A DNA stretch of 64,000 bases from Sinorhizobium fredii NGR234 (GCF_000018545.1 NC_012587.1:682001-746000); one strand, 5' to 3'; positions 15,284-52,464 are shown, counted from the stretch's first letter. Numbers and translations are program-made. Notes: generated by a model not told the origin, from the letters alone.

Positions 15284-16630
15284 ATGGAAGGGAAGAGGCC
15301 ACTCGTTGGCTTTTACGGTGACGATTTCACCGGTTCGTCGGAAAACCTTGCGCAGTTTCACCGCAACGGCCTGAGAACCAGGCTTTATCTGCGGGTTCCA
15401 TCGCAGGAGACGCTGGCGGAAGCAACTCGCGACCTGGATGTCGTGGGATTTGCGGGAACGGCGCGAGCACTGGATAACTCGCAGATCACAGCCGAAGTAT
15501 TTCCGGCCTTCAAAGCGCTCGGAGCGTTAGGCTGCACGTTCCTGCAGTACAAGATCTGCTCGACCTTCGATTCCGCCCCGCAGGTCGGCAACTTCGGGTT
15601 CGCCGCGGAACAGCTCGCGGGGGGCGGAGGCGAATACGACCTGGTTGTCTTGGCTGCAACGCCCGACTTCGGCCGCTACACGGCGTTTGGCAACCACTAT
15701 GCGAAATTCGGTTCCGAGATCGTGCGACTGGATCGGCATCCGAGCATGTCGAACCATCCACGTACTCCGATGAAGGAATCTGATCTCCGGCGGCACCTGG
15801 CCGACCTGTGCTCCCTCGATTTCACCAACATATTCCTGCCGGAGATCCGGGACGAAGCGACACTGTCGAAACGCCTCGAAAATTTGCTTGCCAACAGGAA
15901 GGGCGTTGTTTTCGACGGCGTGGACAATCGCGATCTCGACAATATTGCCAGCGCGCTTTGGGAGCATCACAAAAAACGGCCGGTTTTCGCGATAGCGGCC
16001 CAGGGTCTTGCTCAGGCACTCGGCAAGCAACTGGCGAAACACAAGAATCCGCTCGATCTTCTCGACGTAGGAACGACCATCGCACCCGCGTCCAACCTGC
16101 TGGTGCTGTCGGGCAGCTGCGCCATTCAGACGGGCCGCCAGATCGACGCTGCGGTTCAGGCGGGCTGGGCGGCGCTTGAGCTCAATCCGCTCGAGCTTAC
16201 CGACGGTCGGGCGGTCGCACGCAAAATCGAACTCGTCAAACCGCAGATCATGGCCCACCTCGCCAATGAGCGGCCGACGATCGTCTACACCGCACGGGGT
16301 CACGCAATGGACCGCGACAGGTTCGAGGACATTCCGCCCCAGCTCATTGGCGAAGCCTATGCCAATCTCATGGTCGCGGCCAGAAGGGAGACGGATGTCC
16401 AGCGGGTGGTCCTAGCCGGGGGCGATAGTTCGAGCTACGCGGTCCGGCAGAGCGCGGCGGAGTCGCTGACGATCAAGGTCTTCGATCGGGTTCAGCACGG
16501 TCATCTTTGCGAGCTGATGGGCGGGGGATTGGACGGGCTCGAAGTTCTCCTCAAAGGAGGTCAGGTCGGCGACGACGACTATTTCATGCGCGTGCTTCAC
16601 GGCACCGAGAAGCAGCACGTGGAGGCTTAG
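15284..16630 (+). CDS. Four-carbon acid sugar kinase family protein (DUF1537; OtnK/OiaK type)
   Basis: 448 aa from ATG 15284 with GGGAGGTAGCGAA before it; an earlier in-frame start at 15239 has no ribosome site. GFYGDDFTGSSENL near the N-terminus is the hallmark acid-sugar-binding motif of DUF1537 kinases, and the C-terminal GGDSSSYA is the nucleotide-binding glycine/serine loop. These enzymes phosphorylate oxidised acid sugars (3-oxo-tetronates, 2-keto-tetronates, 3-oxo-isoapionate) with ATP. The BKACE gene starts one base after its stop. With the ApnO-like and RuBisCO-like genes in this window, a 3-oxo-isoapionate-type substrate is the leading guess. Confidence 0.9.
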   Translation: MEGKRPLVGFYGDDFTGSSENLAQFHRNGLRTRLYLRVPSQETLAEATRDLDVVGFAGTARALDNSQITAEVFPAFKALGALGCTFLQYKICSTFDSAPQVGNFGFAAEQLAGGGGEYDLVVLAATPDFGRYTAFGNHYAKFGSEIVRLDRHPSMSNHPRTPMKESDLRRHLADLCSLDFTNIFLPEIRDEATLSKRLENLLANRKGVVFDGVDNRDLDNIASALWEHHKKRPVFAIAAQGLAQALGKQLAKHKNPLDLLDVGTTIAPASNLLVLSGSCAIQTGRQIDAAVQAGWAALELNPLELTDGRAVARKIELVKPQIMAHLANERPTIVYTARGHAMDRDRFEDIPPQLIGEAYANLMVAARRETDVQRVVLAGGDSSSYAVRQSAAESLTIKVFDRVQHGHLCELMGGGLDGLEVLLKGGQVGDDDYFMRVLHGTEKQHVEA

Positions 16631-16631
16631 G

Positions 16632-17513
16632 ATGAAGAAGCTTATACTTGAGGCGCGCATCAACGAGTATGCAATGCGCGACCACAATAGGAACGTTCCT
16701 TGGACCTCCGACGAGATTGCGGAGACCGCAGCTAGGGTGCGTGAAGAAGGCGCGTCGATCCTGCACTTCCACGCGCGAACGGTCGACGGCCAGCCATGGA
16801 ATACGTTCGAAGCTTACGATGATATCATTCGTAAGGTGAAGGCTAAGTCGGACATTCTCATCCTTCCCACGCTCGGCTTCATCTCGAACGATGCCGATGC
16901 CCGTAACCGGATTGATAATGTGGTTCGGCTTGCGCAAGACCCGATAACGAAGCCGGATATCGCACCCATCGATACCGGAAGCGCCAATCTCGAGACCTTC
17001 GACCGCGAAAGCGGCAACGTTTCCTTTGCCGAGCGTATCTACGTCAACACAACCGACTCGCTCGTGCATTATGCTCGCGAACTAAAGCAGGCAGGCGTGA
17101 AGCCCAAGATGGTAAGCTGGTCCGTCGGCTTTACCAGGCGGGCGCTCATGCTGATGGACATGGGATTAATCGATGAACCGGGCTACATGCTGTTTCACAT
17201 GACGGACGGCAAGACGATTACCGGTCATCCCGGAACCCGGCAGGGGCTCGAGGCACATTTGATGTTCTTGCCGCCAGACCGACGGATTGAATGGACGGCA
17301 AACGTGCTGGGCGGCAACCTGCTCGCACTCGCAGATACCATTGCCACACGGGGCGGCCACCTAGCCATGGGTATCGGCGACTATCCTTATCCCGAGCTCG
17401 ACTATCCTTCAAACGAAGTTTTGATCCGCGAGACTGTTCGGGTCATTCGGGCAGCGGGAAGGGAGCCAGCTACTCCAGAGGAGGTCCGTCAAATGCTTGA
17501 TCTGAGTAACTAA
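16632..17513 (+). CDS. BKACE family beta-keto acid cleavage enzyme (DUF849), copy 2
   Basis: 293 aa. Same landmarks as the copy at 12506-13387: ILEARINEYAM with the metal-binding Glu, ILHFHAR histidine pair, and GIGDYPYPE near the C-terminus. The two copies are clearly homologous over the full length but well diverged, so this is an older duplication than that of the GntR genes. Tight coupling to the DUF1537 kinase (1-base gap) implies both act on one pathway. The kinase product in tetronate/apionate pathways is a 3-oxo acid, the class of compound BKACE cleaves. Confidence 0.88.
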   Translation: MKKLILEARINEYAMRDHNRNVPWTSDEIAETAARVREEGASILHFHARTVDGQPWNTFEAYDDIIRKVKAKSDILILPTLGFISNDADARNRIDNVVRLAQDPITKPDIAPIDTGSANLETFDRESGNVSFAERIYVNTTDSLVHYARELKQAGVKPKMVSWSVGFTRRALMLMDMGLIDEPGYMLFHMTDGKTITGHPGTRQGLEAHLMFLPPDRRIEWTANVLGGNLLALADTIATRGGHLAMGIGDYPYPELDYPSNEVLIRETVRVIRAAGREPATPEEVRQMLDLSN

Positions 17514-17660
17514 CTCGGTGTTGGCGGAACCTACACCGCGCCGCTTCTGAAAAAAAAGCAAGCGCGAGTAACTACGGCGGATAAACGCTCGCGCGCTTGA
17601 CTGGCGGGGCGCCATTGAATGGCTGACGAGAAAGAGCGGACGCTAGGAAGGAGATTTAAA

Positions 17661-20209: not shown

Positions 20210-21472
20210 TCAATCGCGCTTGCCGAATTTGGCCAGCGCCTGTTTGAGCTCGGGATGGTTCTGCGCGTACGAATCTAGGTCAACACCCTCGCGCGCGGCT
20301 TCCCATGCTTGTCGAACGGCTTTGACGCCCGCACCTGGACCGTCTGGATGACTGACGACGCCTCCGCCGCAGAGGTACAGGAGATCGAGCGTTCTTCCGG
20401 TTCGACGATATGTCTCAGGCGCCTGTCCACCCCATTGCCCCGAGCAAACGACCGGCATGGGCTTTTCCCCTGCGGACGTGAAAGGGGCGACGAGGTCGTG
20501 GAAAGACTGGACGAACGAATCGTCGGGCTCCCAATACTTGGATCCGATGCCGTTGATCTGGAACTGGTCGACGCCGAGCAGCCGCCAGTACTGCTGGTAA
20601 ACAGAAAAATTCATCCCAAGGCCGGGGTGGCGGGTGAGGATGTCCCATCCGTTACGGTGGGCATGCAGCGCCAGTCTTGAACGCCTCCTCAAAAACAGGA
20701 AAGCACCTTGCCCAATAGAGTTTATGTTGATCACGGCCGCGTTTCCGCCGGCATCGGCGACGACGTCATGGTTTCTCATCATGACGTCGGGATCGACATG
20801 GGAGATGTTGAAGGCATACATTACCTTCTTGCCGGTCCGTTGCTCATGGTCCTTGATGAGAGGCATGATCGCTCTCACCCGCTCCTCGAGCGGCGAATAG
20901 GGCGGACCGCAGAGCTTCTCGTCATCCTTGATGAAATCAACGCCCGAGGCGATAAGCTCACTCACCATCTCGGCCGTTTCGTTGGGACGCAGCCCTAGCG
21001 CCGGCTTGATGATCGTGCCGATCAGAGGTCGGTCGAAGACGCCTGTCAGACGCCGCGTCCCCGCTATGCCGAACTGAGGCCCCGGGTAGGAAGCCCCGAA
21101 CGCATGCGGCAATTGCATGCGCAAGACACGTATGCCGGTGAAGCCTCGGATCGAAAAGACTCCGCCGATCGTGATCGTCATCAAAGCGGAAAGATCGTCA
21201 CCGACCGCTTCAATCGGAAAGGCGATGTCCGCTTCCGCCCGCCGATACGAAGGTCCCGACGCGTTTTGGGGGATCGAGGGCACGGAGATCGGGGGAAGCT
21301 CGCGGACGTCAAGCACGCGGGCGGCGACCCGCGCCTTCAGCTCCGGCGTCTCCCCCGGGAGGTCGACGAACGTGCCCGTCGACTGATCGCTGGCGATCTT
21401 GCTTGCAAACGATTGAGGATCCCCGTCGCATTCGATCATGTACGTCATGACGACGCAGTCGTTTCTATTCAT
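20210..21472 (-). CDS. RuBisCO-like protein (RLP), probable acid-sugar-phosphate decarboxylase or hydrolase
   Basis: 420 aa from ATG 21472; an in-frame TTG at 21496 is the alternative. The TIM barrel keeps the carbamylated lysine and Mg ligands in FIKDDE (about residues 182-185) and TIIKP, but the RuBisCO KPK is KPA here. GIGSKYWEPDD replaces the CO2/O2-specificity loop. No small-subunit or phosphoribulokinase gene is present. RLPs of this type occur in D-apionate pathways, where they act on 3-oxo-isoapionate 4-phosphate (OiaX decarboxylase giving L-erythrulose 1-phosphate; OiaT transcarboxylase/hydrolase giving 3-phosphoglycerate and glycolate). The TpiA/RpiB pair elsewhere in the window favours the decarboxylase outcome. 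Sits between an MBL-fold gene and pgi. Confidence 0.85.
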   Translation of the reverse strand: MNRNDCVVMTYMIECDGDPQSFASKIASDQSTGTFVDLPGETPELKARVAARVLDVRELPPISVPSIPQNASGPSYRRAEADIAFPIEAVGDDLSALMTITIGGVFSIRGFTGIRVLRMQLPHAFGASYPGPQFGIAGTRRLTGVFDRPLIGTIIKPALGLRPNETAEMVSELIASGVDFIKDDEKLCGPPYSPLEERVRAIMPLIKDHEQRTGKKVMYAFNISHVDPDVMMRNHDVVADAGGNAAVININSIGQGAFLFLRRRSRLALHAHRNGWDILTRHPGLGMNFSVYQQYWRLLGVDQFQINGIGSKYWEPDDSFVQSFHDLVAPFTSAGEKPMPVVCSGQWGGQAPETYRRTGRTLDLLYLCGGGVVSHPDGPGAGVKAVRQAWEAAREGVDLDSYAQNHPELKQALAKFGKRD

Positions 21473-21506: not shown

Positions 21507-22373
21507 TCAAACCCTCGATTGCTCTCCGTCCGCGACGCAGATCTCGACTATCCGCAGCCCGTGATCGCTCAGGCGGGAGGGATAGAATTGGGCCAATTTT
21601 TCCTCATGCACCGGTATGATCCGACGCTCGTCATTCCCCACGATGCCCAGCATCTCTTCCGCTGCCTGGATCAGCTTCGTCTGGCTGCCATTCGCAAGGC
21701 CTGGGGGGACGAAACAAGGATCGAGTTGATCGTCGCCAGTCAGGTTCCGGTAGGTGTAGACGACGTCTCCGGACAAGACCAGCCTGTCATCGCTGCCTCT
21801 GTTTTGCACCACTACATACTGGGAGCCCGCGGTATGAGTGTCGTGGGCGGGATACAGGTGAATGCCCGGAAGCACATCTTCTCTCGGTCCTTCGAGAAGT
21901 TCCAGTCTGCCCTCGATGTTCGCCTGGGTAAGATAAAGTATATCGGCGGGGTTCAGCCCAGCCAACAGCGATCGAAACCGGCGACCCTTGGCAAGGATCC
22001 ACATCCAGGATTCGAGCTCCTTCTTCTGAATGAAGATCTTTGCATTGGGAAAGAACTTCAGGCCGCCGATGTGATCGAAGTGGGCGTGCGTTATGAAGAT
22101 GTGAGTCACGTCCTCAGGCCGGACGCCACATTCACCCAGCACTATCTCCGGCGGCGTCCACCCGGTTACTCCGATCGAGTTCGCTATCTCTCCCCCGAAA
22201 TCGTTCGCATCGTGGCCGACGTCGACTAATGCGACCGCATCGGCCGTCCTGATCAGAATGTATGCGAATGGTAGATTCATCGTTCCCTGGTTATGGGCGC
22301 CGTAATAGACACCGCTCACCGGGTGAACAGGGCTTCGGGCATACTCAAGCACCCAAACGGAATGCGCTCCCAT
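21507..22373 (-). CDS. MBL-fold metallohydrolase (lactonase-like)
   Basis: 288 aa with GGAGGAAACAC before the ATG. The metal-binding motif HAHFDH follows VTHIFIT at about residue 95, and a distal His occurs in HDTHTAGSQ with the bridging Asp in LSGDVVY. The overall pattern is that of N-acyl-homoserine lactonase-type MBL proteins. In an operon with two aldo/keto reductases of the aldose 1-dehydrogenase kind, the natural job is opening the aldonolactone they produce. This is inference; ApnL, the described apionolactonase, belongs to another family. Confidence 0.85.
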   Translation of the reverse strand: MGAHSVWVLEYARSPVHPVSGVYYGAHNQGTMNLPFAYILIRTADAVALVDVGHDANDFGGEIANSIGVTGWTPPEIVLGECGVRPEDVTHIFITHAHFDHIGGLKFFPNAKIFIQKKELESWMWILAKGRRFRSLLAGLNPADILYLTQANIEGRLELLEGPREDVLPGIHLYPAHDTHTAGSQYVVVQNRGSDDRLVLSGDVVYTYRNLTGDDQLDPCFVPPGLANGSQTKLIQAAEEMLGIVGNDERRIIPVHEEKLAQFYPSRLSDHGLRIVEICVADGEQSRV

Positions 22374-22854
22374 GTGTTTCCTCCGCGTTTGCGAACAAAG
22401 GCCCTGCGCAACATCCGCTCGCGTCGAATGTCATGGTGCCCAATAGCGCAGATGCCCGTTTCAATTCCAACGAAGCTCTCGTCAGCAACCTCAAGAGCTC
22501 GGTACTCTGCCTTCCCAGCAGTCCTTCGAATGACCTCTGGGCCTGTAAAAGGTCAGAGCGGACTCGGCCGAGATGCCGAGCTGCATGTTCGAGTGCCGCC
22601 AAGCGCCTCCTTTTGTCGCCCCCCTGTCCGACGGACTCCAGTATATCGGCGGCACGGCACGACAGCTGGGCGAAGAGCAGATTCATGCCGGGCTCTCTCA
22701 AGCCGAGGTGCATGAACGAGAACAGTGCGAGCACCTCGCCGTAAGCCCGGACCAGGGTCTCCAGTCCAGACCGCTGCTCCTGCAATTCAACGGCGTTTGC
22801 GACTTCGTTGCAGGAGAACGGAATAAGGGCCCGCTGATACCCCATAACCGTCAC
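22345..22854 (-). CDS. Unknown 169-aa, predicted all-helical protein
   Basis: Starts at GTG 22854, sharing GTGA with the stop of the upstream aldo/keto reductase, with GGAGG just before, and overlaps the MBL gene by 29 bases. It is therefore translated as part of the operon. Not recognised. Composition suggests four to five amphipathic helices, rich in Leu, Ala and Arg (ALFSFMHLGLREPGMNLLFAQ, RLAALEHAARHLGR), without signal peptide or clear membrane segment. Cys residues occur in LSCRAAD and SGCC. Could be a subunit, chaperone or regulatory partner; nothing in the sequence decides. Confidence 0.7.
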   Translation of the reverse strand: MTVMGYQRALIPFSCNEVANAVELQEQRSGLETLVRAYGEVLALFSFMHLGLREPGMNLLFAQLSCRAADILESVGQGGDKRRRLAALEHAARHLGRVRSDLLQAQRSFEGLLGRQSTELLRLLTRASLELKRASALLGTMTFDASGCCAGPLFANAEETHGSAFRLGA

Positions 22855-23894
22855 GCCTCCGCAGGGAGTGGCGCAGTTGCTGGCAGCAGATCAGCTGATT
22901 GCAGGGCGTTCCAGAATGCGGGCGGAATGCGCTCGTTGATCGCCGCCACGTTCTGATCGACTTCAGCACTGCTTTTCGCGCCCATGACTAGTGTGGCCAC
23001 GGCGGGGTGGGCATATACGAACTGCATTGCGGCAGCCGGCAAGCTGACCCGGTATTCCTCGCATACAGCTTCGATCGATTTGACGCGGTCGAGGACGGCG
23101 GCCGGGACTTTCCCGTAGTCGTATGTCGCCGTTGCGCCAGAGGTTCCGCTGGCCAAAATACCCGAATTGAAGATGCCGCCTGCGATGATTGAGACATTTC
23201 TCGACAAAAGCTCGTCGAAGGCGGAGTGCAGGGGTTCGTGGTTGAGCAATGTGTAGCGTCCGGCCACCAGGGCGCACTCGATAGGGAACTCCCGGGAGAC
23301 ACCTACGACGGAATCCGTTTCATTGACTCCGAGGCCAATCGCCGAGACACAGCCGGTGGACCGCAGTTCGTCCAATGCCTTGTACCCGGAGGCTCTCAAC
23401 TGATCCCAGTAGAACTCGCTTCGATCGCCGTGCCAGGCGCGCCCGACATCATGTACGAGCAGGACATCGATGTAATCGAGACCAAGACGCTGCTGGCTGT
23501 CCTCGAACGACCTCATGATACCGTCGTAGGTGTAGTCGTAGGTGTCCAAGAAGGGCAGGGGATCGATCCACTCGATTCCATAGACGGTGTCGAGCTTTTT
23601 CGTGCGGCTGGCTGGCTTGAGGACACGGCCGACCTTGGTGCTCACGACGACGTCGTCTCGCAGCTTATTCACTCTCAGGGCATGGCCCAGGAAATGCTCG
23701 GACTTCCCGAAGCCGTACATGGGAGCGCAGTCGAAGTATCGAATGCCGGCAGCGTAACCCGACAGAATCGTCTGCTCGAACTCGTCGTATGATACGTCCG
23801 CGTTGAAGCCCGAAATGGGAACCGTTCCAAGCCCCAGTGACGTTACCCGCACATTCGATTTGCCGAGCGGGCGCTTTGCCAGGTCCGACATCAT
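22851..23894 (-). CDS. Aldo/keto reductase, aldose 1-dehydrogenase-like (copy 1)
   Basis: 347 aa. The AKR catalytic set is complete: Asp and Tyr in YFDCAPMYGFGKSEHFLG, Lys in VVVSTKVGR, His in VLLVHDVG. The layout (long insert YDYTYDGIMRSFEDSQQRLGLDYIDV, late GAKSSAEVDQN) is that of D-threo-aldose 1-dehydrogenase / L-fucose dehydrogenase / pyridoxal 4-dehydrogenase relatives, which oxidise a cyclic aldose to its lactone with NAD(P). It follows the closely related copy 2 by 27 bases and is translationally coupled to the unknown 169-aa gene. Confidence 0.9.
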   Translation of the reverse strand: MMSDLAKRPLGKSNVRVTSLGLGTVPISGFNADVSYDEFEQTILSGYAAGIRYFDCAPMYGFGKSEHFLGHALRVNKLRDDVVVSTKVGRVLKPASRTKKLDTVYGIEWIDPLPFLDTYDYTYDGIMRSFEDSQQRLGLDYIDVLLVHDVGRAWHGDRSEFYWDQLRASGYKALDELRSTGCVSAIGLGVNETDSVVGVSREFPIECALVAGRYTLLNHEPLHSAFDELLSRNVSIIAGGIFNSGILASGTSGATATYDYGKVPAAVLDRVKSIEAVCEEYRVSLPAAAMQFVYAHPAVATLVMGAKSSAEVDQNVAAINERIPPAFWNALQSADLLPATAPLPAEA

Positions 23895-23921: not shown

Positions 23922-24971
23922 TCAGGCGGCCGATGTCATGATCGGAGCCGCTTCCGGGATGAGGCTCTTTGCCTTGAGCGCGGACCAGAACCCTGGCGGG
24001 ATCTTCTCGGAAATCGCCTTGACGTTCGCCTCGACGTGGGCAGTGCTAAGGGCGCCTTGGACCACCGCAGTGACGGCCGGGTGCGAGTAGACGAACTGCG
24101 TCGCCGCCGTCGCAAGCGAAATGCCAAATTCGCCGCAAACTGCCTCGAGAGCTTCAACGCGCTTCAGGATTTCGGGGCTGGCTGTCTGATAGTCGTACGT
24201 CCGAACCGCAGCCGCACCTTTGCTTCCCTCTGCCAGGACGCCGGAATTGTAGACGCCGCCTGCGATGATTGCGATCCCGCGGCGCTGAGCCTCGGGGAAG
24301 AAGTCTTCAAGAGGCTGATGGTTAAGCAGCGTGTAGCGGCCCGCGACCAACGAGCAATCAAGATTAAATTCGGCAGCGACTTGTAGAACAGACGCGGTCT
24401 CGTTGACGCCGAGCCCTATCGCCTTGACTGCTCCGCTGCTCCGAAGCTCATCGCAGGCCCGATACCCGCTCTGGCGGAGCTGCGAGAGGTAGAGGTCGTA
24501 GCTGTCGCGATGCCAGACGCCGCTGACGTCGTGGAGATAGAGAATGTCGACGCCATCAACGCCCATGCGCTGCTGGCTGTCCTCGAATGAACGCATTATC
24601 CCGTCGTACGTGTAGTCGTATTCGTCGACGTAAGGCAGCGGGTCGATCCAGTTGATGCCGTAAAGGCTCTCCGCCCGCTTCGAGCGGCTCGCGGGCTTGA
24701 GGATACGTCCCGCTTTAGTGCTGATGACCACGTCCTCGATGATACCGTTCACGCGCAGCACATGACCCAGGCTGTGCTCGGACTTGCCGAGGCCATAGAG
24801 CGGTGCCGTATCAAAATACCGCACGCCCAGCTCGTAGGCCTTCATGACCACGGCTTCGAAATCGGTGAACGGGACCCTCACGCCGCAACCGCCCAATGGC
24901 GAGGTACCAAGACCCAGTGAAGTCAGTTCGACTCCGGTGTTACCGATCTTTCTCTTCTCTAGCACAGTCAT
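23922..24971 (-). CDS. Aldo/keto reductase, aldose 1-dehydrogenase-like (copy 2)
   Basis: 349 aa, clearly paralogous to the next gene over its whole length. Catalytic residues: Asp/Tyr in YFDTAPLYGLGKSEHSLG, Lys in VVISTKAGR, His in ILYLHDVSG. The same inserts are present as in copy 1. Tandem retention of two such enzymes suggests different anomers, different sugars, or a heteromeric enzyme. First catabolic gene after the ABC importer; separated from the binding-protein gene by a strong hairpin. Confidence 0.9.
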   Translation of the reverse strand: MTVLEKRKIGNTGVELTSLGLGTSPLGGCGVRVPFTDFEAVVMKAYELGVRYFDTAPLYGLGKSEHSLGHVLRVNGIIEDVVISTKAGRILKPASRSKRAESLYGINWIDPLPYVDEYDYTYDGIMRSFEDSQQRMGVDGVDILYLHDVSGVWHRDSYDLYLSQLRQSGYRACDELRSSGAVKAIGLGVNETASVLQVAAEFNLDCSLVAGRYTLLNHQPLEDFFPEAQRRGIAIIAGGVYNSGVLAEGSKGAAAVRTYDYQTASPEILKRVEALEAVCGEFGISLATAATQFVYSHPAVTAVVQGALSTAHVEANVKAISEKIPPGFWSALKAKSLIPEAAPIMTSAA

Positions 24972-26011: not shown

Positions 26012-26047
26012 ATTCTCCTCCGATTTTTTTGTTGCTATTGGCAACGA

Positions 26048-28673: not shown

Positions 28674-28691
28674 AGGTATAAGGTCATACCT
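28674..28691. promoter_or_regulatory. GntR/FadR-type operator copy 4 (RLP operon / Sua5-like gene)
   Basis: AGGTATAAGGTCATACCT, 40 bases upstream of the ATPase start on one side and 3 bases upstream of a TTGACA on the other. The inner AGGTCATACCT is a perfect FadR-type core. It could control both divergent units. Confidence 0.75.
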
Positions 28692-30932: not shown

Positions 30933-30950
30933 AGGTATGAGGTATGACCA
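30933..30950. promoter_or_regulatory. GntR/FadR-type operator copy 5 (aldo/keto reductase 3)
   Basis: AGGTATGAGGTATGACCA. Inner AGGTATGACCA fits AGGTNNNACC(A/T). It lies 15 bases before the reductase ATG on the minus strand, overlapping the expected transcript start, and about 190 bases from the transketolase start. Confidence 0.72.
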
Positions 30951-31091
30951 CCTCTATCAGAGACAGGGCTGGGCGTCATTAGAAATTTTTGCGGAATGTT
31001 ACCGCTCTTCTCAAAATAACAAAAAATATGTGACTTTGTAATTTCCGCTTGTGATTTTTAAAAAAGCGCACGACATTGGCCACCATCGAGA

Positions 31092-44250: not shown

Positions 44251-45471
44251 ATGAAGAGACTGCTTTGTGTGGCGACGGCTGTTGCGATGTTTCTGCCTGT
44301 CGCAGTGCGGGCTGAGGAGGCCAGGGTCATCCACTGGTGGACGTCGGGCGGGGAATCCGACGCGATCAAGGTCATCGCCGACGCTTATAAGTCGGATGGC
44401 GGCACCTGGATAGATCAGGCCATCGCGGGGTCGGACTCGGCTCGGCTCGCCGCCACCAATGCGATCTCCGGTGGGCAGCCGCCGACGATGGCGCAATTCA
44501 ACATTTCCAACCAGTTCCGTGAACTTGCCGAGGCAAGCTTCCTGCGCAGCCTCGATGATGTGGCGGCAGACGAGAACTGGCAAGCGGTTCTTCCAGGGCC
44601 AATCTTGGATGTCATCACGGTCGACGGTCACATCTATGCGGCGCCGGTGAACATCCATAATCCCGCTTGGATCTGGTACTCGACGGAGGCGTTGCAAAAA
44701 GCTCAGGTCTCCGAACCGCCGACGACGAAGAACGCGTTCTTCACCGCCCTGGACAAGCTGAAATCGGCCGGAATCATCCCTTTGGCTCTCGGCGGCCAGC
44801 CGTGGCAGGAGCGCGCGACTTTCGACGCAGTTCTCCTGCACTTCGGCGGCAAGGACATGTACATGAACTTCATCGGCGGCAATGGCGCAGCCTTGGTCCA
44901 GACGCCCGAGTTCAAACAAGTCCTCGCCGATTTCAAGCGCCTGAAAGGCTATGTGGACGAGGGATCGCCCAATCGTAGCTGGAACGAGGCGACTGCACTT
45001 GTTATCGAGAACAAGGCTGGTTTCCAGATCATGGGGGACTGGGCCAAGGGTGAATTCAAGGCCGCCGGCGACACCGCCGGGAAGGAATACGGTTGTATCG
45101 TGGGGTTCGGCGACAAGCCCTCGTACATGATCGCAGGCGACGTCTTCATTTTCCCGAAGTCGAACGAATCCGACACCGCCGCGCAAACGCACCTCGCCAA
45201 GCTGATGCTCTCGCCGAAGGTTCAGGTGGATTTCAATAACCTAAAAGGCTCCATCCCAGTGCGGGCGGGCGTGGACGGCTCGAATATGGATGTCTGTGCG
45301 CAGGCCGGGCTTGCCGCTGTCTCCGATCCGTCGCGCCAGGTTCCGAATCCCGAGATGCGCCTGTCGCCGGACGCACATGGCATGGTGACAGACGCGATTT
45401 CGAACTTCTGGAATACCGACCAATCGGTCGATGAAGCTGTGGCCGCGCTGCAAAGCGCGCTGTCGATGTAG
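44251..45471 (+). CDS. Sugar ABC transporter substrate-binding protein (CUT1 type)
   Basis: 406 aa from ATG 44251 with GAGGAGGAG upstream and a signal peptide (MKRLLCVATAVAMFLPVAVRA). The mature protein begins EEARVIHWWTSGGESDAIKV, typical of extracellular solute-binding family 1 proteins for oligosaccharides, with the aromatic-rich PAWIWYS and LGGQPWQERATFD. The GH3 enzyme at the end of the operon suggests a beta-glucoside or short glucan as ligand. Confidence 0.94.
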   Translation: MKRLLCVATAVAMFLPVAVRAEEARVIHWWTSGGESDAIKVIADAYKSDGGTWIDQAIAGSDSARLAATNAISGGQPPTMAQFNISNQFRELAEASFLRSLDDVAADENWQAVLPGPILDVITVDGHIYAAPVNIHNPAWIWYSTEALQKAQVSEPPTTKNAFFTALDKLKSAGIIPLALGGQPWQERATFDAVLLHFGGKDMYMNFIGGNGAALVQTPEFKQVLADFKRLKGYVDEGSPNRSWNEATALVIENKAGFQIMGDWAKGEFKAAGDTAGKEYGCIVGFGDKPSYMIAGDVFIFPKSNESDTAAQTHLAKLMLSPKVQVDFNNLKGSIPVRAGVDGSNMDVCAQAGLAAVSDPSRQVPNPEMRLSPDAHGMVTDAISNFWNTDQSVDEAVAALQSALSM

Positions 45472-45544
45472 GCTGGCATTCTGGCGGGGACCGGGAAAGA
45501 CCGGCCCCGCCTGCGCCGAACCATCAACAGAGCGGGAGGCAGAG

Positions 45545-46465
45545 ATGAAAGGACGCAGTTCTCCGACCAAGGAGAGGTCGGGCCGGTTGGGGCGCGGTTG
45601 GGATCTTCATATGCCCTATTTCGCACTTATCCCACTTCTGATTGTCGTCATTGTATTCTATTTGGGAACGATGGCCTGGTCGGTCGGAGTTTCCTTCACG
45701 AGCTCCAAGCTGTTGCCGACAGCGAACTACGTTGGCCTTGAACAGTATCGGGTTCTCTTTGGCACTGCACGCTGGCTGGTTGCCCTGGAGAACATCGTTC
45801 TCTTCGGTTTCACCTTCATGGCCAGCTGCCTTGTATTTGGCTTCCTTCTGGCGGTGTTCGTCGACCAAAAAGTGCGCGGTGAAGGGATCTTCCGCACGAT
45901 CTTCCTGTTCCCTTACGCGATGTCCTTCATCGTCACCGGACTTGTCTGGCAATGGCTCTTGAACCCCGGCCTTGGCATCCAGCAGTTTGTCCGGGGATTG
46001 GGCTTGGAACAGTTCACGTTTGGCTGGATCAACGATCAGCAGCTGGCGATTTACGCCATAGCTATTGCGGCATTTTGGCAGGGATCTGGTCTGATCATGG
46101 TCATCATGCTGGCCGGTCTGCGCGGCGTGGACGTCGAGCTATGGAAGGCTGCCAAGATCGACGGGGTCCCGACATGGCGGGTCTACATGTCGATCGTCCT
46201 GCCCATTCTTCGGCCGACGGTTGCGACCGCCGTGGTTCTGTTGGCTCTCGGCGTCGTCAAGGCTTACGACGTGGTCGTCGCAATGACCCAAGGCGGCCCC
46301 GGAGTTGCCACCGAGGTGCCGGCAAAGTTCATCATGGATTACCTTTTCCAGCGTCAAAACCTGGGTCTGGCGATGGCCGGCTCGACCGTGATGCTGTTGA
46401 GCGTCCTAATGCTCTTGGCCCCCTATCTCTACGCGCAGTATCTCCGCAAAGAATCGAGGCATTGA
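45545..46465 (+). CDS. Sugar ABC transporter permease (MalF-like)
   Basis: 306 aa from ATG 45545 with GGGAGGCAG upstream. Six membrane segments and the permease coupling loop LWKAAKIDGVPTWRVYMSIVLPIL (EAA-type motif) near residue 205. First of the two membrane subunits of a CUT1 importer. Confidence 0.94.
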   Translation: MKGRSSPTKERSGRLGRGWDLHMPYFALIPLLIVVIVFYLGTMAWSVGVSFTSSKLLPTANYVGLEQYRVLFGTARWLVALENIVLFGFTFMASCLVFGFLLAVFVDQKVRGEGIFRTIFLFPYAMSFIVTGLVWQWLLNPGLGIQQFVRGLGLEQFTFGWINDQQLAIYAIAIAAFWQGSGLIMVIMLAGLRGVDVELWKAAKIDGVPTWRVYMSIVLPILRPTVATAVVLLALGVVKAYDVVVAMTQGGPGVATEVPAKFIMDYLFQRQNLGLAMAGSTVMLLSVLMLLAPYLYAQYLRKESRH

Positions 46466-46466
46466 A

Positions 46467-47330
46467 ATGGCCTACGACAACCATCCACCCCAGGTAAGGT
46501 TCGCAATCTATGCCGTCCTCGTGGTCGCGGGCATCTTCTACTTTCTACCGATCTACGTGATGATTGCCACGTCGCTGAAATCCATGTCCGAAATCCGGGA
46601 CGGGAGCATCTTCGCACTTCCCGCGGCGCCCAGTATCGACGCTTGGGTTAGGGCCTGGACGTCGGCCTGCACGGGTCTGAACTGCACGGGCATCCGGGTC
46701 GGGTTCTGGAACTCGGTGTCGATTGTAACGCCTTCAGTAATCGTCTCCATCTTCTTTGGCGCGCTGAACGGCTATGCCCTCAGCTTCTGGCGGCCAAGGG
46801 GCGGCGTTTGGCTGCTCTGTGGCCTGCTGCTTGGAGCTTTCATCCCCTACCAGATCTTTCTCTTCCCATTGACCAAGATCCTGGTGGCGGTCGGTCTGTT
46901 CAAGACCCTGACGGGCCTCGTGTTCGTCCATACTCTGTTCGGAATGCCAATAATGACGCTGCTGTTTCGGAACTATTTTGCCTCCGTTCCAAGCGATCTG
47001 TTCAATGCCGCAAGGGTCGATGGTGCAGGCTTCTTCGCCATCTTCTTCTTTGTAATGTTGCCGATGGCGACACCCATCGTAATCGTCGCCGTGATCATGC
47101 AAATCACGGCGATTTGGAATGATTTCTTGTTTGGCCTGGTTTTCGCAAATTCTGACCGCGTTCCAATGACCGTCCAGCTCAACAACATAGTCAATTCGAC
47201 GACGGGGGAGCGGGAATACAACGTGAACATGGCCGCAACCATTCTGACCTCGCTGGTTCCGGTCGCCGTGTATTTACTTTCCGGAAAATACTTCGTGCGC
47301 GGCATCGCCGCTGGCGCGGTGAAAGGCTGA
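46467..47330 (+). CDS. Sugar ABC transporter permease (MalG-like)
   Basis: 287 aa, one base after the MalF-like gene. Six membrane segments; EAA-type loop LFNAARVDGAGFFAIFFFVMLPMATP near residue 175. It forms the heteromeric channel with the preceding permease. Confidence 0.94.
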   Translation: MAYDNHPPQVRFAIYAVLVVAGIFYFLPIYVMIATSLKSMSEIRDGSIFALPAAPSIDAWVRAWTSACTGLNCTGIRVGFWNSVSIVTPSVIVSIFFGALNGYALSFWRPRGGVWLLCGLLLGAFIPYQIFLFPLTKILVAVGLFKTLTGLVFVHTLFGMPIMTLLFRNYFASVPSDLFNAARVDGAGFFAIFFFVMLPMATPIVIVAVIMQITAIWNDFLFGLVFANSDRVPMTVQLNNIVNSTTGEREYNVNMAATILTSLVPVAVYLLSGKYFVRGIAAGAVKG

Positions 47331-47333
47331 ATC

Positions 47334-48401
47334 ATGACCAAGAACGTCTCTGTGAAGAAACTAAACATCGGCTATGGCGCCTACACGATCGTTAAGGACC
47401 TGGACCTCGATATTGCGGCGGGCGAGTTTCTGGTGTTGCTCGGCCCTTCGGGCTGCGGCAAGTCTACATTACTATCAGCCTTTGCCGGCCTCGCCCCGGT
47501 GCAAAGCGGCGCCATCCACTTCGGAGACCGCGACGTGACACGCCTTGCCCCAAAGGATCGAGGCGTGGGCATGGTCTTTCAGTCCTACGCGCTCTATCCG
47601 ACCATGTCGGTGCGCAGGAACATCAGTTTCGGAATGAAGATGGCCGGAATCAGGGCGGCTGAACGCGAGCGCAAGGTCAACGAGGTGGCGGACTTCCTGC
47701 AGATTTCCGCCCTGCTCGACCGCAAGCCTTCGCAACTCTCCGGCGGACAGAGGCAGAGGGTGGCGATCGGTAGGGCGCTTGCACGCGATGCCGACATCTA
47801 TCTGTTCGACGAGCCGCTATCGAACCTCGACGCCAAGCTACGCACCGAGCTGCGGTACGAGATCCGGCGGCTGCACTCGGAACTTGGCTCGACGATGATC
47901 TACGTAACGCACGACCAAATCGAAGCGATGACGCTGGCAACCCGGATTGCGGTCATGAAGTCGGGCGTGATTCAGCAGTTGGATCGCCCAAACGAAATTT
48001 ATCTGCGGCCAGCAAATCTTTTCGTAGCGGGTTTCGTCGGGTCACCGGCGATGAACTTGATCAAGGGGCGGATCGACAGGGCGGCCGGAGGGGGCTCGAT
48101 CTTCGTTTCAGCCGGCTTCAGTCTGGAGCTGAAGGCCAGGTATCAGTCGCAAGAGGCGATTTTGGGCGTCAGACCCGAACAGTTCGTAAGTCGCGATGGC
48201 CCCATCAAGGGCAAGATTGAAATGACTGAGGACATGGGGCCCGATGCGCTTTTCTGGTTGACGGTCGGTGGCCAGCGGCTGTCCATCCGGTCCAGTTCCT
48301 CATCGCTGCCCCAGCCCGGCTCGGAGTTTAGCGCAAACGTGGACCAGGACGTGATTTCGCTCTTTTCTGCGGAAAGCGGAGTGAGGCTTGCCGCCGCCTG
48401 A
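47334..48401 (+). CDS. Sugar ABC transporter ATP-binding protein (MalK/UgpC family)
   Basis: 355 aa. Walker A GPSGCGKST near residue 40, signature LSGGQRQRVAIGRAL, Walker B YLFDEPLSNLDA, switch His in VTHDQIEAMT. The C-terminal part (from about 235) is the OB-fold regulatory domain of MalK-type subunits. Three bases after the second permease. Such ATPases can serve several importers. Confidence 0.95.
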   Translation: MTKNVSVKKLNIGYGAYTIVKDLDLDIAAGEFLVLLGPSGCGKSTLLSAFAGLAPVQSGAIHFGDRDVTRLAPKDRGVGMVFQSYALYPTMSVRRNISFGMKMAGIRAAERERKVNEVADFLQISALLDRKPSQLSGGQRQRVAIGRALARDADIYLFDEPLSNLDAKLRTELRYEIRRLHSELGSTMIYVTHDQIEAMTLATRIAVMKSGVIQQLDRPNEIYLRPANLFVAGFVGSPAMNLIKGRIDRAAGGGSIFVSAGFSLELKARYQSQEAILGVRPEQFVSRDGPIKGKIEMTEDMGPDALFWLTVGGQRLSIRSSSSSLPQPGSEFSANVDQDVISLFSAESGVRLAAA

Positions 48402-48709
48402 ACGCCGCGTCCATACCGTCAAAGGATCATGCTCGGGCCCAAGAGGCTAATGAATCATGCGTCGCAGGAGACCGGCTTGGCGAGTTAGCACCGCGCGGAC
48501 CAACGCCACCTTCGCCTACGAGGTGCTCTCATGGCTAAAGGGATCACGAGGCTGTGTCGTGCGCAGTGATCGCGAATTCCGGTTCGGTTGTAGGGTGCTA
48601 ACGGAAACTACGATTGGTGGGCAGCGCGAGGAGCAGCTCAGGCCGTTGTTTGCAAATCGCAAGTCCCCCAGACGGCGTAGCTGCCTGAAGTAACGAGAAG
48701 GATACGAAG
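48402..48709. other. Gap between importer ATPase and beta-glucosidase
   Basis: 308 bases. No convincing gene, terminator or operator copy seen. AACGAGAAGGAT immediately before the next ATG supplies its ribosome site. Confidence 0.4.
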
Positions 48710-51154
48710 ATGATAGACGTTAAGACGCTCCTCGACGAGATGACCTTGGCCGAGCAGGTATCGCTACTTTCAGGAGACTCGTTCTGGTCTCTGCCATGCA
48801 TTCAACGGCTCGGGATCGGCACATTGCGCCTCACCGACGGTCCAAACGGCGCGCGCGGTGCGGGTTCACTGATCGGCGGCGTGTCTGCAGCGGCCTTTCC
48901 GGTCGGTATCGCCTTGGGCGCGACTTGGAACCCTGGCCTGATGCGAGCGGTGGGGGAGGCGCTTGCGGAAGAGGTTCAGTCCAAGGGAGCCCATGTTTCA
49001 TTGGCCCCCACCATTAACATCCAACGCAGCGTCACCAATGGGCGGAACTTTGAATGCTATTCCGAGGATCCGGTGCTGACGGCTGAACTTGCCGTGGGCT
49101 TCATCGAAGGTATGCAGGCCAAGAAGGTCAGTGCCACGGTCAAGCATTTTGTCGGCAACGAATCCGAAATAGAGCGGACGACCATTTCCTCGGACATCGA
49201 CGAGCGCACCCTGCGCGAAGTGTACCTGGTGCCATTCGAGGCCGCGGTAAAGCGCGCGAAGACTTGGGCGGTGATGTCGTCGTACAACAAGCTGAATGGC
49301 ACCTATACGGCCGAGAACCACTGGCTCCTGACGGAGGTGCTGCGCGGCGATTGGGGCTTTGACGGCGTGGTGATGTCGGATTGGTTCGGCTCGCGCTCGA
49401 CCGCGCCGACGGTGAATGCGGGGCTGGATCTGGAGATGCCCGGCCCGAGCCGCGACCGGGGCGACAAGCTGTTGGCAGCCATCGAATCCGGCGAGGTGAG
49501 TGTCGAGACGATCCGCGACTGCGTGCAGAACATTCTGACGCTCATGGTGCGCACGGGTGCCATCGACGATCACCGCGAACTCAAGGAGCGCGCCGACGAC
49601 CGGCCGGAACACCGGGCTCTGATCCGGCGAGCGGGGGCCGAAAGCGCGGTGCTGCTGCAGAACGACGGGATTTTGCCGCTGCCGCAGCAAGGAACGGTCG
49701 CGGTGATCGGGCCCAACGCCAAGGCCGCGCAGATCATGGGCGGCGGCTCGGCACAGCTCAATCCCCACTACACCGTCAGCCCCTGGCAGGGATTGGCTGG
49801 TGCGATTGGCGAAGCGAACCTGCACTACGCCCAGGGTTGCACCAACCACCGGTTCGAGCCGCTGATCGAACATCCCACCACATTCGAATTCTTCCAGGGG
49901 CGCGAGCTTCTCGGCGACCCGGTGAAGGTGGTCGAAGAGCCGTCGAGCCTCGGCGTCTGGCTGCCCCCGGTTGCGGACGGCCTGGTCGACCCGCATCACT
50001 TCTCGGCTCGAATGCGCACTCGGTTCACCGCAGCCGAAGACGGGATTCATCGTATCGGGCTGACTTCGGCCGGACTCGGGCGGGTCTATGTGGACGGCGA
50101 ACTGGTGGTCGATGCCTGGACCTGCTGGACCCGCGGCACCACGTTCTTCGAAGAGGGTTGCGAGGAGGTCGTGGGCGAGATCACGCTCGAAGCTGGTCGC
50201 ACCTACGAGATCGTAGCCGAATATGTGCGGCACGACCATGTCAACCTCTATATCGCCGCCATTCGCGTGGGCATCGGCAAGGTTTCGGCCGAAGCGGAGA
50301 TTTCCGAAGCAGCGGCCGTGGCGGCAAAGGCCGACCGGGCGGTCGTCTTCGTCGGGCGGACGAGCGACTGGGATACCGAAGGGTCCGACCTTCGCGACAT
50401 CGCGCTTCCGGGCTTGCAGGACCGGCTGGTCGACGCGGTGATCGCTGCCAATCCGAATACGGTCGTCGTGCTGCAGACGGGCGGGCCGGTGGAAATGCCC
50501 TGGTTGTCCAAGGCGCGCGCCGTTCTGCAATGCTGGTATCCCGGACAGGAGGCCGGCAATGCCATCGCCGACGTGCTGCTGGGCAAGGCCGAACCCTCGG
50601 GCCGGCTGGCGCAGTCCTTTCCCGCGCGTTGGCTGGACAATCCGACCCAGTCCGACGATCCGGAAGTCTATCCCGGCAAGAACGGCCATGTGCGCTACGA
50701 CGAGGGCGTTTTCGTCGGCTATCGTCACTATGACCGCGCCGGCACTAAACCGCTGTTCCCGTTTGGACACGGGCTTGGGTATACGAGTTTTGCGATTGCC
50801 GATCTGACGGTCGGTACGCCAGACGGTGCCGGGTCAGTGACAGTGGCGCTGAAGCTGACCAATACTGGCGAGCGCGCGGGGGCGACCGTGGTGCAAATCT
50901 ATGTGAGTGATACCGAGGCGTCGTTGCCCCGTCCGGTCAAGGAGTTGAAGGCATTCGCCAAGGTCGCCTTGGAACGAGGCGAGAGTCGGCGGGTGACATT
51001 CACGCTGGACGCCCGGGCCTTTGCCTTCTTCGATGCCGCCGAGCGCTGTTGGCGGATCGAGGGTGGCGAGTTCACGGTGATGGCCGGTCTCTCGGCAGGC
51101 GACATTCGCTTGGCCGCCACCGTCACTCAGGCGTCCGCCACCATGCCACGCTAA
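48710..51154 (+). CDS. Glycoside hydrolase family 3 beta-glucosidase with PA14 domain
   Basis: 814 aa. The N-terminal barrel (to about 300) has LTDGPNGARG, HFVGNESE and the nucleophile Asp in FDGVVMSDWFG. The C-terminal sandwich starts near ESAVLLQNDGILPL and is interrupted at about 385-530 by a PA14-type module (RTRFTAAEDGIHRIGLTSAG, then VYVDGELVVDA). A fibronectin-like domain ends the protein. No signal peptide, so it acts in the cytoplasm on imported glycosides, releasing glucose. Same strand as the CUT1 importer, 308 bases downstream. Confidence 0.94.
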   Translation: MIDVKTLLDEMTLAEQVSLLSGDSFWSLPCIQRLGIGTLRLTDGPNGARGAGSLIGGVSAAAFPVGIALGATWNPGLMRAVGEALAEEVQSKGAHVSLAPTINIQRSVTNGRNFECYSEDPVLTAELAVGFIEGMQAKKVSATVKHFVGNESEIERTTISSDIDERTLREVYLVPFEAAVKRAKTWAVMSSYNKLNGTYTAENHWLLTEVLRGDWGFDGVVMSDWFGSRSTAPTVNAGLDLEMPGPSRDRGDKLLAAIESGEVSVETIRDCVQNILTLMVRTGAIDDHRELKERADDRPEHRALIRRAGAESAVLLQNDGILPLPQQGTVAVIGPNAKAAQIMGGGSAQLNPHYTVSPWQGLAGAIGEANLHYAQGCTNHRFEPLIEHPTTFEFFQGRELLGDPVKVVEEPSSLGVWLPPVADGLVDPHHFSARMRTRFTAAEDGIHRIGLTSAGLGRVYVDGELVVDAWTCWTRGTTFFEEGCEEVVGEITLEAGRTYEIVAEYVRHDHVNLYIAAIRVGIGKVSAEAEISEAAAVAAKADRAVVFVGRTSDWDTEGSDLRDIALPGLQDRLVDAVIAANPNTVVVLQTGGPVEMPWLSKARAVLQCWYPGQEAGNAIADVLLGKAEPSGRLAQSFPARWLDNPTQSDDPEVYPGKNGHVRYDEGVFVGYRHYDRAGTKPLFPFGHGLGYTSFAIADLTVGTPDGAGSVTVALKLTNTGERAGATVVQIYVSDTEASLPRPVKELKAFAKVALERGESRRVTFTLDARAFAFFDAAERCWRIEGGEFTVMAGLSAGDIRLAATVTQASATMPR

Positions 51155-51346
51155 ACGCAGCGCGAGCGGCCCCGGCGGGGCTGTGGCAAACTATGTTGAC
51201 GGATGGAGAGATCCGCTACTTCGGCGGGTCGAGACATCGGATGCCGGCATACGCCGCATAATCCAGCCGATCACCGCGGATCTGGTTGCATGTGCGATGC
51301 GTTCACTATCTCCTCCCAAGAAAGATAAAATGCTTTGATAACTGGA

Positions 51347-51598
51347 CTAGGCGATGATCCTTCGCGCCTCCGCTGTTGAAGCCACTCTTCCTCCGGCAGC
51401 TTCGATCGCCGTCGTCGCCGCCTCCACCAAGGCGAGGTTTCCCGTTTCCGAGCCGCGTTCGAAATCTGACCCGCTCGGACGTGTCCCCCCAACGCGAAAA
51501 CGTCCGCCAGCCTTGCTGGACGCAATTGCCTCCGAGACGATTTCATCCGCGGCGACTGGATTCTTGGGCTGGCGCTTACGGGTCCCTGGTCCGCTCAT
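51347..51598 (-). CDS. Hypothetical 83-aa protein or gene tail after the ApnO-like gene
   Basis: Same strand as and 38 bases downstream of the ApnO-like gene, with an AGGA before the ATG. The sequence (MSGPGTRKRQPKNPVAADEI..., ending AEARRIIA) is not recognised; its second half looks like the helix-rich C-terminus of a longer enzyme. Weak ribosome site and short length leave open that it is not translated. Confidence 0.35.
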   Translation of the reverse strand: MSGPGTRKRQPKNPVAADEIVSEAIASSKAGGRFRVGGTRPSGSDFERGSETGNLALVEAATTAIEAAGGRVASTAEARRIIA

Positions 51599-51636
51599 AG
51601 ATCCTGCGGCGCCGATTTCGAACAAAAAAGGAGTCG

Positions 51637-52464
51637 TCAGGTGATGCGCCGGATGCTGTCCGCGATTTCCTTGGGTTCGAATACTTTCTTCCAGTCGTCC
51701 TTCATCAGAGCAGGGATGCCAAATTCGATCGCCTTGTTGCACGCGTCTGAGAAGACGCCAGGCGTTTCCTCGAAAATGACCGCGCCCAGGACGTTCAGGT
51801 GGCCGAGCAGGAAATCCCGAGCCGCTTCCTTCGGGACTCCCCGCGCGACGCATTCGTCCATGGCCTGGCGCATGACGACAAGGAGCGAGGCGCAGACGGT
51901 TTCCGACAGGCCGGGTTCGAGCAAGGCGATTTGTTCAACCGTGACCCGGTGCGATCGCATGACAGGTGCCCAGATCACTTTGGCTATCTCTTCCCCAAGA
52001 GCATAGTGCTCTTCGGGGCCTTGCATCAGCGCGGAGACTATGTGCTGCTTGGCCGCCACCCCTCCGAAGAAATCGCGCTTCGCGTGCGGGTCCGTCTCGT
52101 CGTTGAAGATCGGAGGATGGCATGGATGGGTGACGAAGTATGTGAGGTCCGGACGATCCGGCAGGTGTCCGGCCGCCGGAGCCGCGGCGTCGAGCGCGAT
52201 CACCATCGTGCCCGGCCGGAGTTTCGCCTCAATGCTCGAGGCCACTTTGCCTATTGCCGTGTCCGGGACGGCCAATATGACCACGTCGACGCCGTCAAGT
52301 GCCTGATCGACATCAACGGTGCCGATGCCAAGCTCTCTCTCAAGGCGAGCCTTGCCCCCGGCGCTCACCTCGACGTGGCGAACGTCGAACCGCGAGCCCT
52401 TGAGATTTTTCGTCAGGCGGCATCCCATTTTTCCACCAGCCCCGAACAGCGCAACCGCAGTCAT
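51637..52464 (-). CDS. ApnO-like oxidoreductase (6-phosphogluconate dehydrogenase-like superfamily)
   Basis: 275 aa. An N-terminal Rossmann domain opens ALFGAGGKMGCRLTKNL, with VVILAVPDTAIGKVA further on; a conserved THPCHPPIFNDE follows near residue 110, then a helical C-terminal domain of the PGDH_C type (PF16896). Members of this family include D-apionate oxidoisomerase (ApnO), which oxidises D-apionate and shifts a carbon group to give 3-oxo-isoapionate, the substrate of OiaK-type DUF1537 kinases. Both a DUF1537 kinase and an RLP are in the window. GGAGGAGTTC precedes the ATG, and an operator lies 17 bases upstream. Confidence 0.85.
   Translation of the reverse strand: MTAVALFGAGGKMGCRLTKNLKGSRFDVRHVEVSAGGKARLERELGIGTVDVDQALDGVDVVILAVPDTAIGKVASSIEAKLRPGTMVIALDAAAPAAGHLPDRPDLTYFVTHPCHPPIFNDETDPHAKRDFFGGVAAKQHIVSALMQGPEEHYALGEEIAKVIWAPVMRSHRVTVEQIALLEPGLSETVCASLLVVMRQAMDECVARGVPKEAARDFLLGHLNVLGAVIFEETPGVFSDACNKAIEFGIPALMKDDWKKVFEPKEIADSIRRIT

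Follow-up and report, generated by a model that had tools for sequence, protein, structure and literature searches.

The DNA analysed here is a 64-kb window of the Sinorhizobium fredii NGR234 genome (G000:C3:682001-746000; 6.9 Mb in three contigs), in which a block at about 6.7 to 52.5 kb brings together the genes of a RuBisCO-like protein (RLP), a DUF1537 kinase, an MBL-fold protein, three aldo/keto reductases (AKRs), a sugar-binding protein, TpiA, RpiB and an ApnO-like protein. All of these lie where an initial annotation, which had joined them into one catabolic route for an apiose-type sugar, had placed them. Beyond that annotation, an SDR dehydrogenase, DUF849 proteins, a pair of GntR regulators, a Sua5-like protein, transketolase, fructose-bisphosphatase (FBPase), fructose-bisphosphate aldolase (FBA), a chemoreceptor and TRAP transporter genes share with them either the block or the palindromic operator AGGTATnAGGTnATACCT, which is common to its intergenic regions. 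The features, in window positions, are:

6737-6754, forward strand: operator-like site before the TRAP transporter (6806-9872; DctP, DctM), 2 mismatches; kept in G216 and P. arenae (L158:2759)
11611-13387, forward strand: second GntR regulator (GntR2) and second DUF849 protein, with an operator-like site at 11565
13505-14206, reverse strand: GntR1, GntR/FadR-type regulator (Pfam GntR and FCD)
14355-15146, reverse strand: SDR dehydrogenase (Pfam adh_short_C2; YxxxK motif)
15180-15197, forward strand: operator between the SDR and kinase genes, 3 mismatches
15284-16630, forward strand: DUF1537 sugar-acid kinase, divergent from OiaK (PF07005/PF17042)
16632-17513, forward strand: DUF849 protein (Pfam name BKACE), nearest to cis-epoxysuccinate hydrolase (PF05853; PDB 5zmu, 301 bits)
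20210-21463 (to 21496 with a TTG start), reverse strand: RLP, OiaX type (PF00016; NF042437; motifs)
21507-22373, reverse strand: MBL-fold protein, proposed lactonase (PF00753; HxHxDH)
22345-22854, reverse strand: orphan all-helical protein between AKR1 and MBL, C-terminal CC, no Pfam match
22851-23894, reverse strand: AKR1, proposed aldose 1-dehydrogenase (PF00248)
23922-24971, reverse strand: AKR2, proposed aldose 1-dehydrogenase (PF00248; PDB 8scc)
25028-26044, reverse strand: CUT2-type sugar-binding protein (PF13407)
26048-27034, reverse strand: sugar ABC permease (PF02653)
27105-28634, reverse strand: sugar ABC ATPase (PF00005, two stretches)
28674-28691, forward strand: operator between the Sua5-like and ATPase genes, perfect match
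28750-29763, forward strand: second L-threonylcarbamoyladenylate synthase, Sua5-like (TIGR00057, 168 bits, cut-off 123)
29938-30918, reverse strand: AKR3 (PF00248)
30933-30950, forward strand: operator with 3 mismatches, between the AKR3 and transketolase genes
31076-33115, forward strand: transketolase (TIGR00232, 867 bits, cut-off 682)
33112-34134, forward strand: class 1 FBPase (NF006780, 492 bits, cut-off 358)
34141-35190, forward strand: class II FBA (TIGR01521, 609 bits, cut-off 496)
35150-35974, forward strand: DeoR regulator (PF00455, PF08220)
35971-36756, forward strand: TpiA, L-erythrulose-1-phosphate isomerase type (PDB 11ef, 455 bits)
36753-37226, forward strand: RpiB-type isomerase (PF02502)
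40860-40884, forward strand: two overlapping operators upstream of the chemoreceptor (sites 40860 and 40867; 4 and 1 mismatches)
41018-42892, forward strand: methyl-accepting chemotaxis protein (PF00015, PF12729); the gene and its operator are conserved in G216 and G316
51637-52464, reverse strand: ApnO-like protein, D-apionate oxidoisomerase-like (PF16896, 252 bits; PDB 5t57, 444 bits)
52482-52499, forward strand: operator upstream of ApnO, 1 mismatch

RLPs related to that of the window stand in two kinds of locus. The best 80 of 410 confirmed loci from an RLP scan, sorted by their neighbours, comprised 16 with the gene set of the window (window-type) and 64 with that of the canonical oxidative D-apiose/D-apionate pathway, whose enzymes are listed in passages of PMC11747546; adding four plasmid loci gave 20 window-type and 64 canonical loci (84 in all). 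A neighbour was counted as present at 40% identity, or 30% in the case of the orphan, if the match covered 40% of its length; the flanks were mostly 10 kb, so that distant members are missed. The kinase, DUF849 protein, MBL, AKR1, AKR2, AKR3, binding protein, ATPase, Sua5-like protein and orphan were present in 20/20 window-type loci, and SDR and GntR in 19/20 (in L016 the SDR falls beyond the fetched stretch and is found in L158); none of this set was matched in the 64 canonical loci except AKR1 and AKR2, in one of them. The canonical loci hold an OiaK-like kinase (63/64, at least 40% identical to that of contig C2 of the same genome; 1/20 window-type loci have such a kinase beside the RLP), a GntR of their own (64/64), ApnO (55/64), ApnL (52/64) and a Gfo/Idh protein (60/64). 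NGR234 itself carries such a locus on C2, with ApnL (858 bits, cut-off 750), ApnO, OiaX (781 bits) and an OiaK-like kinase (464 bits), and no match to the C2 ApnL or Gfo/Idh protein was found in the window or in any of the 20 window-type loci.

The operator ties the block together, as the initial annotation had proposed. At up to 3 mismatches it has seven start positions in the window (6737, 11565, 15180, 28674, 30933, 40867 and 52482), compared with none in ten 64-kb Markov-1 simulations and none in L011-L014 of the same genome. All four distinct places genome-wide with at most 2 mismatches fall inside the window; at exactly 3 mismatches there are three places outside and three inside, and a reversed control pattern gave 11 genome-wide matches at up to 3 mismatches. 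Because the consensus was derived from the window's own sites, this enrichment is partly built in, and the more independent evidence is conservation in relatives, for instance before ApnO as given below. Between 2 and 5 sites lie within 3 mismatches in every window-type locus (20/20), and only three of the 64 canonical loci have one each. Relatives of GntR1 occur in 19/20 window-type and 0/64 canonical loci, a GntR gene adjoins the SDR gene in plasmid loci, and a degenerate operator-like site, weaker than 4 mismatches, precedes GntR1 itself. GntR1 is likely to be the repressor of the regulon, presumably acting on the operator. GntR2 is 81% identical to it, and the second DUF849 protein is 46% identical to the first. 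The chemoreceptor gene carries two overlapping operator copies, and chemotaxis is therefore probably induced together with the pathway.

With 761 bits for NF042437, the curated OiaX model of NCBIfam (cut-off 700), the window RLP is well supported, by sequence, as a putative member of the OiaX-type (3-oxo-isoapionate-4-phosphate decarboxylase) family. It is 99% identical to the RLP of Ensifer sp. MPMI2T and 69% identical to the canonical C2 copy; over 261 conserved columns, window-type and canonical RLPs share 253 and have 8 fixed differences. A first, quick tree (99 rows) placed the window-type RLPs in two groups, and a tree of 44 chosen rows under a better model placed them together inside the OiaX-type rows, at an SH-aLRT of 94, short of the mark of 95. 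The TpiA homologue gives 455 bits with PDB 11ef, an L-erythrulose-1-phosphate isomerase, versus 183 with the next-best triose-phosphate isomerase, and is well supported as a predicted enzyme of the L-erythrulose-1-phosphate isomerase (LerI/EryH) type rather than a triose-phosphate isomerase, which bears out its earlier designation as a tetrulose-phosphate isomerase. In a TpiA tree of 33 rows, in which three window-type rows including that of the window passed the length filter, a 14-row set (SH-aLRT 99) contained all 10 OiaK-adjacent rows and the three window-type rows, and the window TpiA fell in a 6-row set (SH-aLRT 97) with two further window-type, two canonical-locus and one other TpiA. 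TpiA and RpiB were each found in 15/20 window-type loci, and in 29 and 31, respectively, of the 64 canonical loci.

ApnO, which lies some 30 kb away and had been counted in the route by the initial annotation, is supported as a member on several grounds. It shares 82% identity with its ApnO-like counterpart in the canonical C2 locus (no NCBIfam ApnO model matched either protein) and is preceded by the 1-mismatch operator at 52482; the operator before ApnO has at most 1 mismatch in G216 (where it is perfect) and G316, and 3 mismatches in P. arenae (L158) and R. leucaenae (L148). In G000, G216, G316 and G342 one contig carries both ApnO and the window-type kinase, ~17-35 kb apart, with ApnO following the chemoreceptor in G216, and in the Ensifer relative G014 a distance of 22 kb separates the sole PF16896 protein from the sole RLP above the OiaX cut-off. 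Two PF16896 matches occurred in 4/4 genomes with a window-type kinase (68-100% identity) versus 16/394 sampled family genomes (hypergeometric 2e-6, uncorrected for kinship, with three of the four genomes in one genus). Another 13 window-type genomes were examined: 11 of them carry, elsewhere, a canonical locus with RLP, kinase and ApnO within one 20-kb stretch; G010 has PF16896 pieces spread over several contigs, one of them also with a second RLP. Our reading is that Ensifer and Pararhizobium have an ApnO dedicated to the regulon and that other carriers draw on one encoded in trans, the alternative being that the plasmid forms need none. Beside ApnO, the window at 51150-51640 holds a DUF849 remnant whose pieces match the intact protein (L158:9686-10633; E 5e-10 and 2e-7) encoded after ApnO in P. 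arenae. There, ApnO, DUF849, a TRAP transporter and a GntR stand in a row (L158:8902-14347) beside the window-type SDR, perhaps as a separate apionate branch.

The AKRs and the MBL protein would form the front half of the pathway. The best PDB match of AKR2 is an L-galactose dehydrogenase (8scc, 93.5 bits); that of the MBL protein is 8x78 (119 bits), with lactonases, among them 4-pyridoxolactonase, as weaker matches. That entry through AKRs and an MBL enzyme would be new, as the initial annotation had claimed, agrees with the want of ApnL and Gfo/Idh matches in window-type loci and their frequency in canonical ones; the reactions themselves we infer. The SDR, which we propose to act in sugar-acid oxidation, is 49% identical over 175 aa to one adjoining an RLP and a kinase in another cluster (L202). 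The first DUF849 protein reaches 130 bits with its best NCBIfam model of a 3-keto acid cleavage enzyme (BKACE), below the cut-off of 382, although it matches PF05853, and its closest solved protein is the cis-epoxysuccinate hydrolase 5zmu. The Sua5-like gene is kept in the regulon in every window-type locus although a further copy lies at C3:537211. The orphan protein, confined at 30% identity to window-type loci (20/20 versus 0/64), overlaps the MBL start and ends in an invariant Cys-Cys; its predicted structure (pLDDT 72) resembles solved ones only weakly, for the most part ligand domains of chemoreceptors (best E 0.02).

Taken together, we favour, with a probability of roughly 0.6, the reading that the whole block forms a single laterally mobile regulon under GntR control, which serves an apiose-like branched sugar of plants, most likely D-apiose itself. 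To judge by protein family and gene order, the sugar would enter through the ABC transporter, the AKRs would oxidise it to a lactone, and the MBL enzyme would open the lactone. In the Ensifer/Pararhizobium form the operator-controlled ApnO would then turn D-apionate into 3-oxo-isoapionate, which the DUF1537 kinase would phosphorylate; the OiaX-type RLP would decarboxylate the phosphorylated acid to L-erythrulose 1-phosphate, and the TpiA-type isomerase, probably with RpiB, would convert this to D-erythrose 4-phosphate. Finally, FBA, FBPase (which may act as a sedoheptulose bisphosphatase) and transketolase could carry erythrose 4-phosphate and triose phosphate by way of sedoheptulose bisphosphate into central metabolism. 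The steps from ApnO to RpiB are modelled on known apionate chemistry, with those of RLP and TpiA having the support of sequence assignment. Of the single apiose-type route drawn earlier, the OiaX-type RLP, the TpiA type, RpiB and ApnO as a regulon member are supported, and D-apiose is the most likely candidate for its substrate.

Several results weigh against this reading. The kinase has the domains of the step assigned to it (PF07005/PF17042), but it is remote from OiaK in model score, with 237 bits against NF042436 (cut-off 700), and at 34% identity from the canonical-locus kinase; the C2 kinase likewise falls below the cut-off, at 464 of 700 bits. SDR and DUF849, kept alongside the kinase in 19/20 and 20/20 window-type loci, have no place in the route. 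The binding protein gives 82 bits with 5ibq, whose ligand we take to be apiose, compared with 541 bits for the canonical C2 binding protein. Within the fetched flanks, transketolase was found in only 3/20, FBPase in 5/20 and FBA in 4/20 window-type loci, and ApnO in none (0/20); four complete plasmids with the island likewise have no ApnO, nor has G004, a draft assembly. An operator-like site occurs in only 2 of the 11 canonical RLP-kinase-ApnO stretches mentioned above, in both cases with 3 mismatches, and the complete canonical locus on C2 would make a second D-apiose route redundant; most window-type genomes examined also carry a canonical locus already. We had considered dismissing the ApnO at 51637 as unrelated, given its distance and its absence from all 20 flanks, a view overturned by its operator, contig linkage in five genomes and the case of G014.

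The island's carriers bear on both its mobility and its alternatives. Among plasmid records with a window-type kinase, 12/13 were typed as conjugative, and Phaseolus was the source of 10/13 versus 10/60 records with a canonical-type kinase, the latter drawn evenly from 253 (Fisher 5e-5); with near-duplicates on the island side collapsed the figure is 7/10 (Fisher p 0.001, kinship not modelled). An island on conjugative-typed plasmids, mostly from Phaseolus, may be a host-linked nutritional trait.

Plain redundancy, in which AKRs and MBL stand in for the Gfo/Idh ApsD and for ApnL in a second D-apiose pathway and the rest are passengers, is possible but unlikely: the late enzymes are the same, and the RLP and ApnO are close to their C2 copies at the identities given above, but the genes for SDR, kinase, DUF849 protein, Sua5-like protein and orphan stay together under two rearranged gene orders and in both RLP sublineages, as is not expected of passengers, and the binding protein differs from the canonical one. 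We consider it distinctly unlikely that the sugar is instead a 2-C-branched aldose such as D-hamamelose, with ApnO an apionate add-on in some strains. AKR and MBL would then yield hamamelonate (2-carboxyarabinitol), the SDR would oxidise C3 and the DUF1537 kinase phosphorylate C5, and the RLP would decarboxylate 2-carboxy-3-keto-arabinitol phosphate, in reverse of RuBisCO carboxylation, to a pentulose phosphate for the isomerases and transketolase. Such a route would use the SDR, kinase and DUF849 that 19-20 of the 20 window-type loci keep with no ApnO nearby, and the RLP, kinase and SDR of the L202 cluster likewise come with no ApnO match. The Phaseolus excess would fit it, though these labels are confounded by relatedness; so would carboxyarabinitol, which according to passages of PMC9833046 is present in bean leaves and made by plants from hamamelose, and the D-hamamelose assimilation with an RLP reported for Ochrobactrum anthropi, as cited in PMC8914248 and PMC10176493, for which, however, the citing text names 3-phosphoglycerate and glycolate as products and no decarboxylation product. 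Also at odds with it are a TpiA of tetrulose-phosphate type that groups with canonical-locus TpiA, RLP conserved columns that barely differ from the canonical ones, and an ApnO that bears the operator and is the sole PF16896 protein in G014; on this TpiA, RLP and ApnO evidence it was set aside as the best reading.

A more specific form, still more doubtful, would have the island, plasmid-borne and associated with beans, break down D-hamamelose or 2-carboxyarabinitol, plant precursors of the night-time RuBisCO inhibitor 2-carboxyarabinitol 1-phosphate (CA1P). If true, the RLP would run RuBisCO carboxylation backwards on 3-keto-2-carboxyarabinitol 5-phosphate, its substrate having been prepared by AKR, MBL lactonase and SDR together with a DUF1537 kinase of a new kind. 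Oxidation by the SDR would then account for the lack of a dedicated ApnO in most loci. We hold it least likely that SDR and a metal-binding DUF849 protein replace ApnO within an apionate route, the SDR oxidising C2 of D-apionate and DUF849 shifting the hydroxymethyl group, which would spare the island an oxidoisomerase of its own on plasmids. We know of no precedent in the family for oxidoisomerisation by such a pair, and Ensifer forms retain SDR, DUF849 and ApnO together. The pair is nevertheless kept with the kinase in loci lacking ApnO; G004, with a single RLP, has no PF16896 protein, albeit in a draft assembly; and DUF849 is closer to cis-epoxysuccinate hydrolase, whose activity is metal-dependent according to passages of PMC6429283, than to keto-acid cleavage enzymes.

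As to the limits of the block, the ATPase start was moved from 28790 to 28634 because the longer reading frame would overlap the operator; its relatives are 1527-1533 bases long. The GH3 and SBP_bac_1 ABC genes (44251-51154) were rejected as members, as no operator site precedes them and neither was matched in the G216 stretch (GH3 was in G316). PGI and PntAB were rejected as core genes (PGI in 1/20 and PntA in 2/20 window-type loci, neither in the G316 stretches).

The island represents a second set of genes in the company of OiaX-type RLPs, among them new candidates for a kinase family and for the aldose dehydrogenases and lactonase of a branched sugar, and four conserved genes (SDR, DUF849, Sua5-like and orphan) that have no assigned role. 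RefSeq-style annotation labels window-type RLPs oiaX; their neighbours indicate that this label alone is insufficient to tell the sugar. Within the literature library searched, no description of the window-type gene set was found by title or abstract.

Compared with known systems, the window is closest to the canonical D-apiose/D-apionate pathway, reportedly described by Carter et al. in 2018, with the enzymes ApsD, ApnL, ApnO, OiaK and OiaX. The two have in common an OiaX-type RLP, an ApnO-like protein, a DUF1537 kinase, a CUT2-type transporter and TpiA/RpiB beside the RLP. They differ in that the window has no ApnL or Gfo/Idh match, possesses three AKRs, MBL, SDR, DUF849, Sua5-like and orphan proteins, and has a kinase only 34% identical, a GntR only 31% identical and another operator. 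Strain LCG007, with a canonical-type gene set, grows on D-apiose according to passages of PMC11747546, and the pC plasmid of R. etli CIAT 652 matches the full canonical set (RLP, OiaK-like kinase, TpiA, RpiB, ApnO, Gfo/Idh and ApnL). An RLP of CIAT 652 was reported to take part in CO2 fixation (PMC8914248). The rbcL-named RLP of that strain sits in a canonical apionate locus (L203:9855-22727) and is probably the gene mutated in that study; the printed counts of the RLP mutant in PMC8914248 exceed those of the wild type, while its text says that fixation diminished.

A further cluster kind, at L202:8061-18905 (genome G011), consists of LysR, RLP, OiaK-like kinase, SDR, a KdgT-family permease and an ABC transporter. 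It resembles the window in its RLP, kinase, ABC transporter and SDR (49% identical), but its RLP is only 42% identical and scores 407 of the OiaX cut-off of 700, the kinase, at 512 bits, comes far nearer to OiaK, and the 19-kb stretch has no AKR or MBL match. The isomerases recall erythritol catabolism, which in rhizobia has a DeoR-TpiA-RpiB trio, and with which the window shares TpiA and RpiB-type isomerases and a D-erythrose 4-phosphate end point; the window route, in contrast, would enter by a branched acid and an RLP, and the one FGGY kinase seen (3795-5417) lies outside the operator-bearing block, ahead of its first operator-like site at 6737. Tetrulose-phosphate isomerases are used in the erythritol catabolism of Brucella and Ochrobactrum according to passages of PMC12780249. 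The D-hamamelose pathway of Ochrobactrum anthropi, as cited in PMC8914248, likewise has an RLP amid sugar-assimilation genes, a likeness by description and not by sequence, but differs in its products, 3-phosphoglycerate and glycolate. Altogether, the window looks like a known kind of pathway in a new arrangement, a second and differently built RLP route by which apiose or another branched sugar of plants could be broken down.

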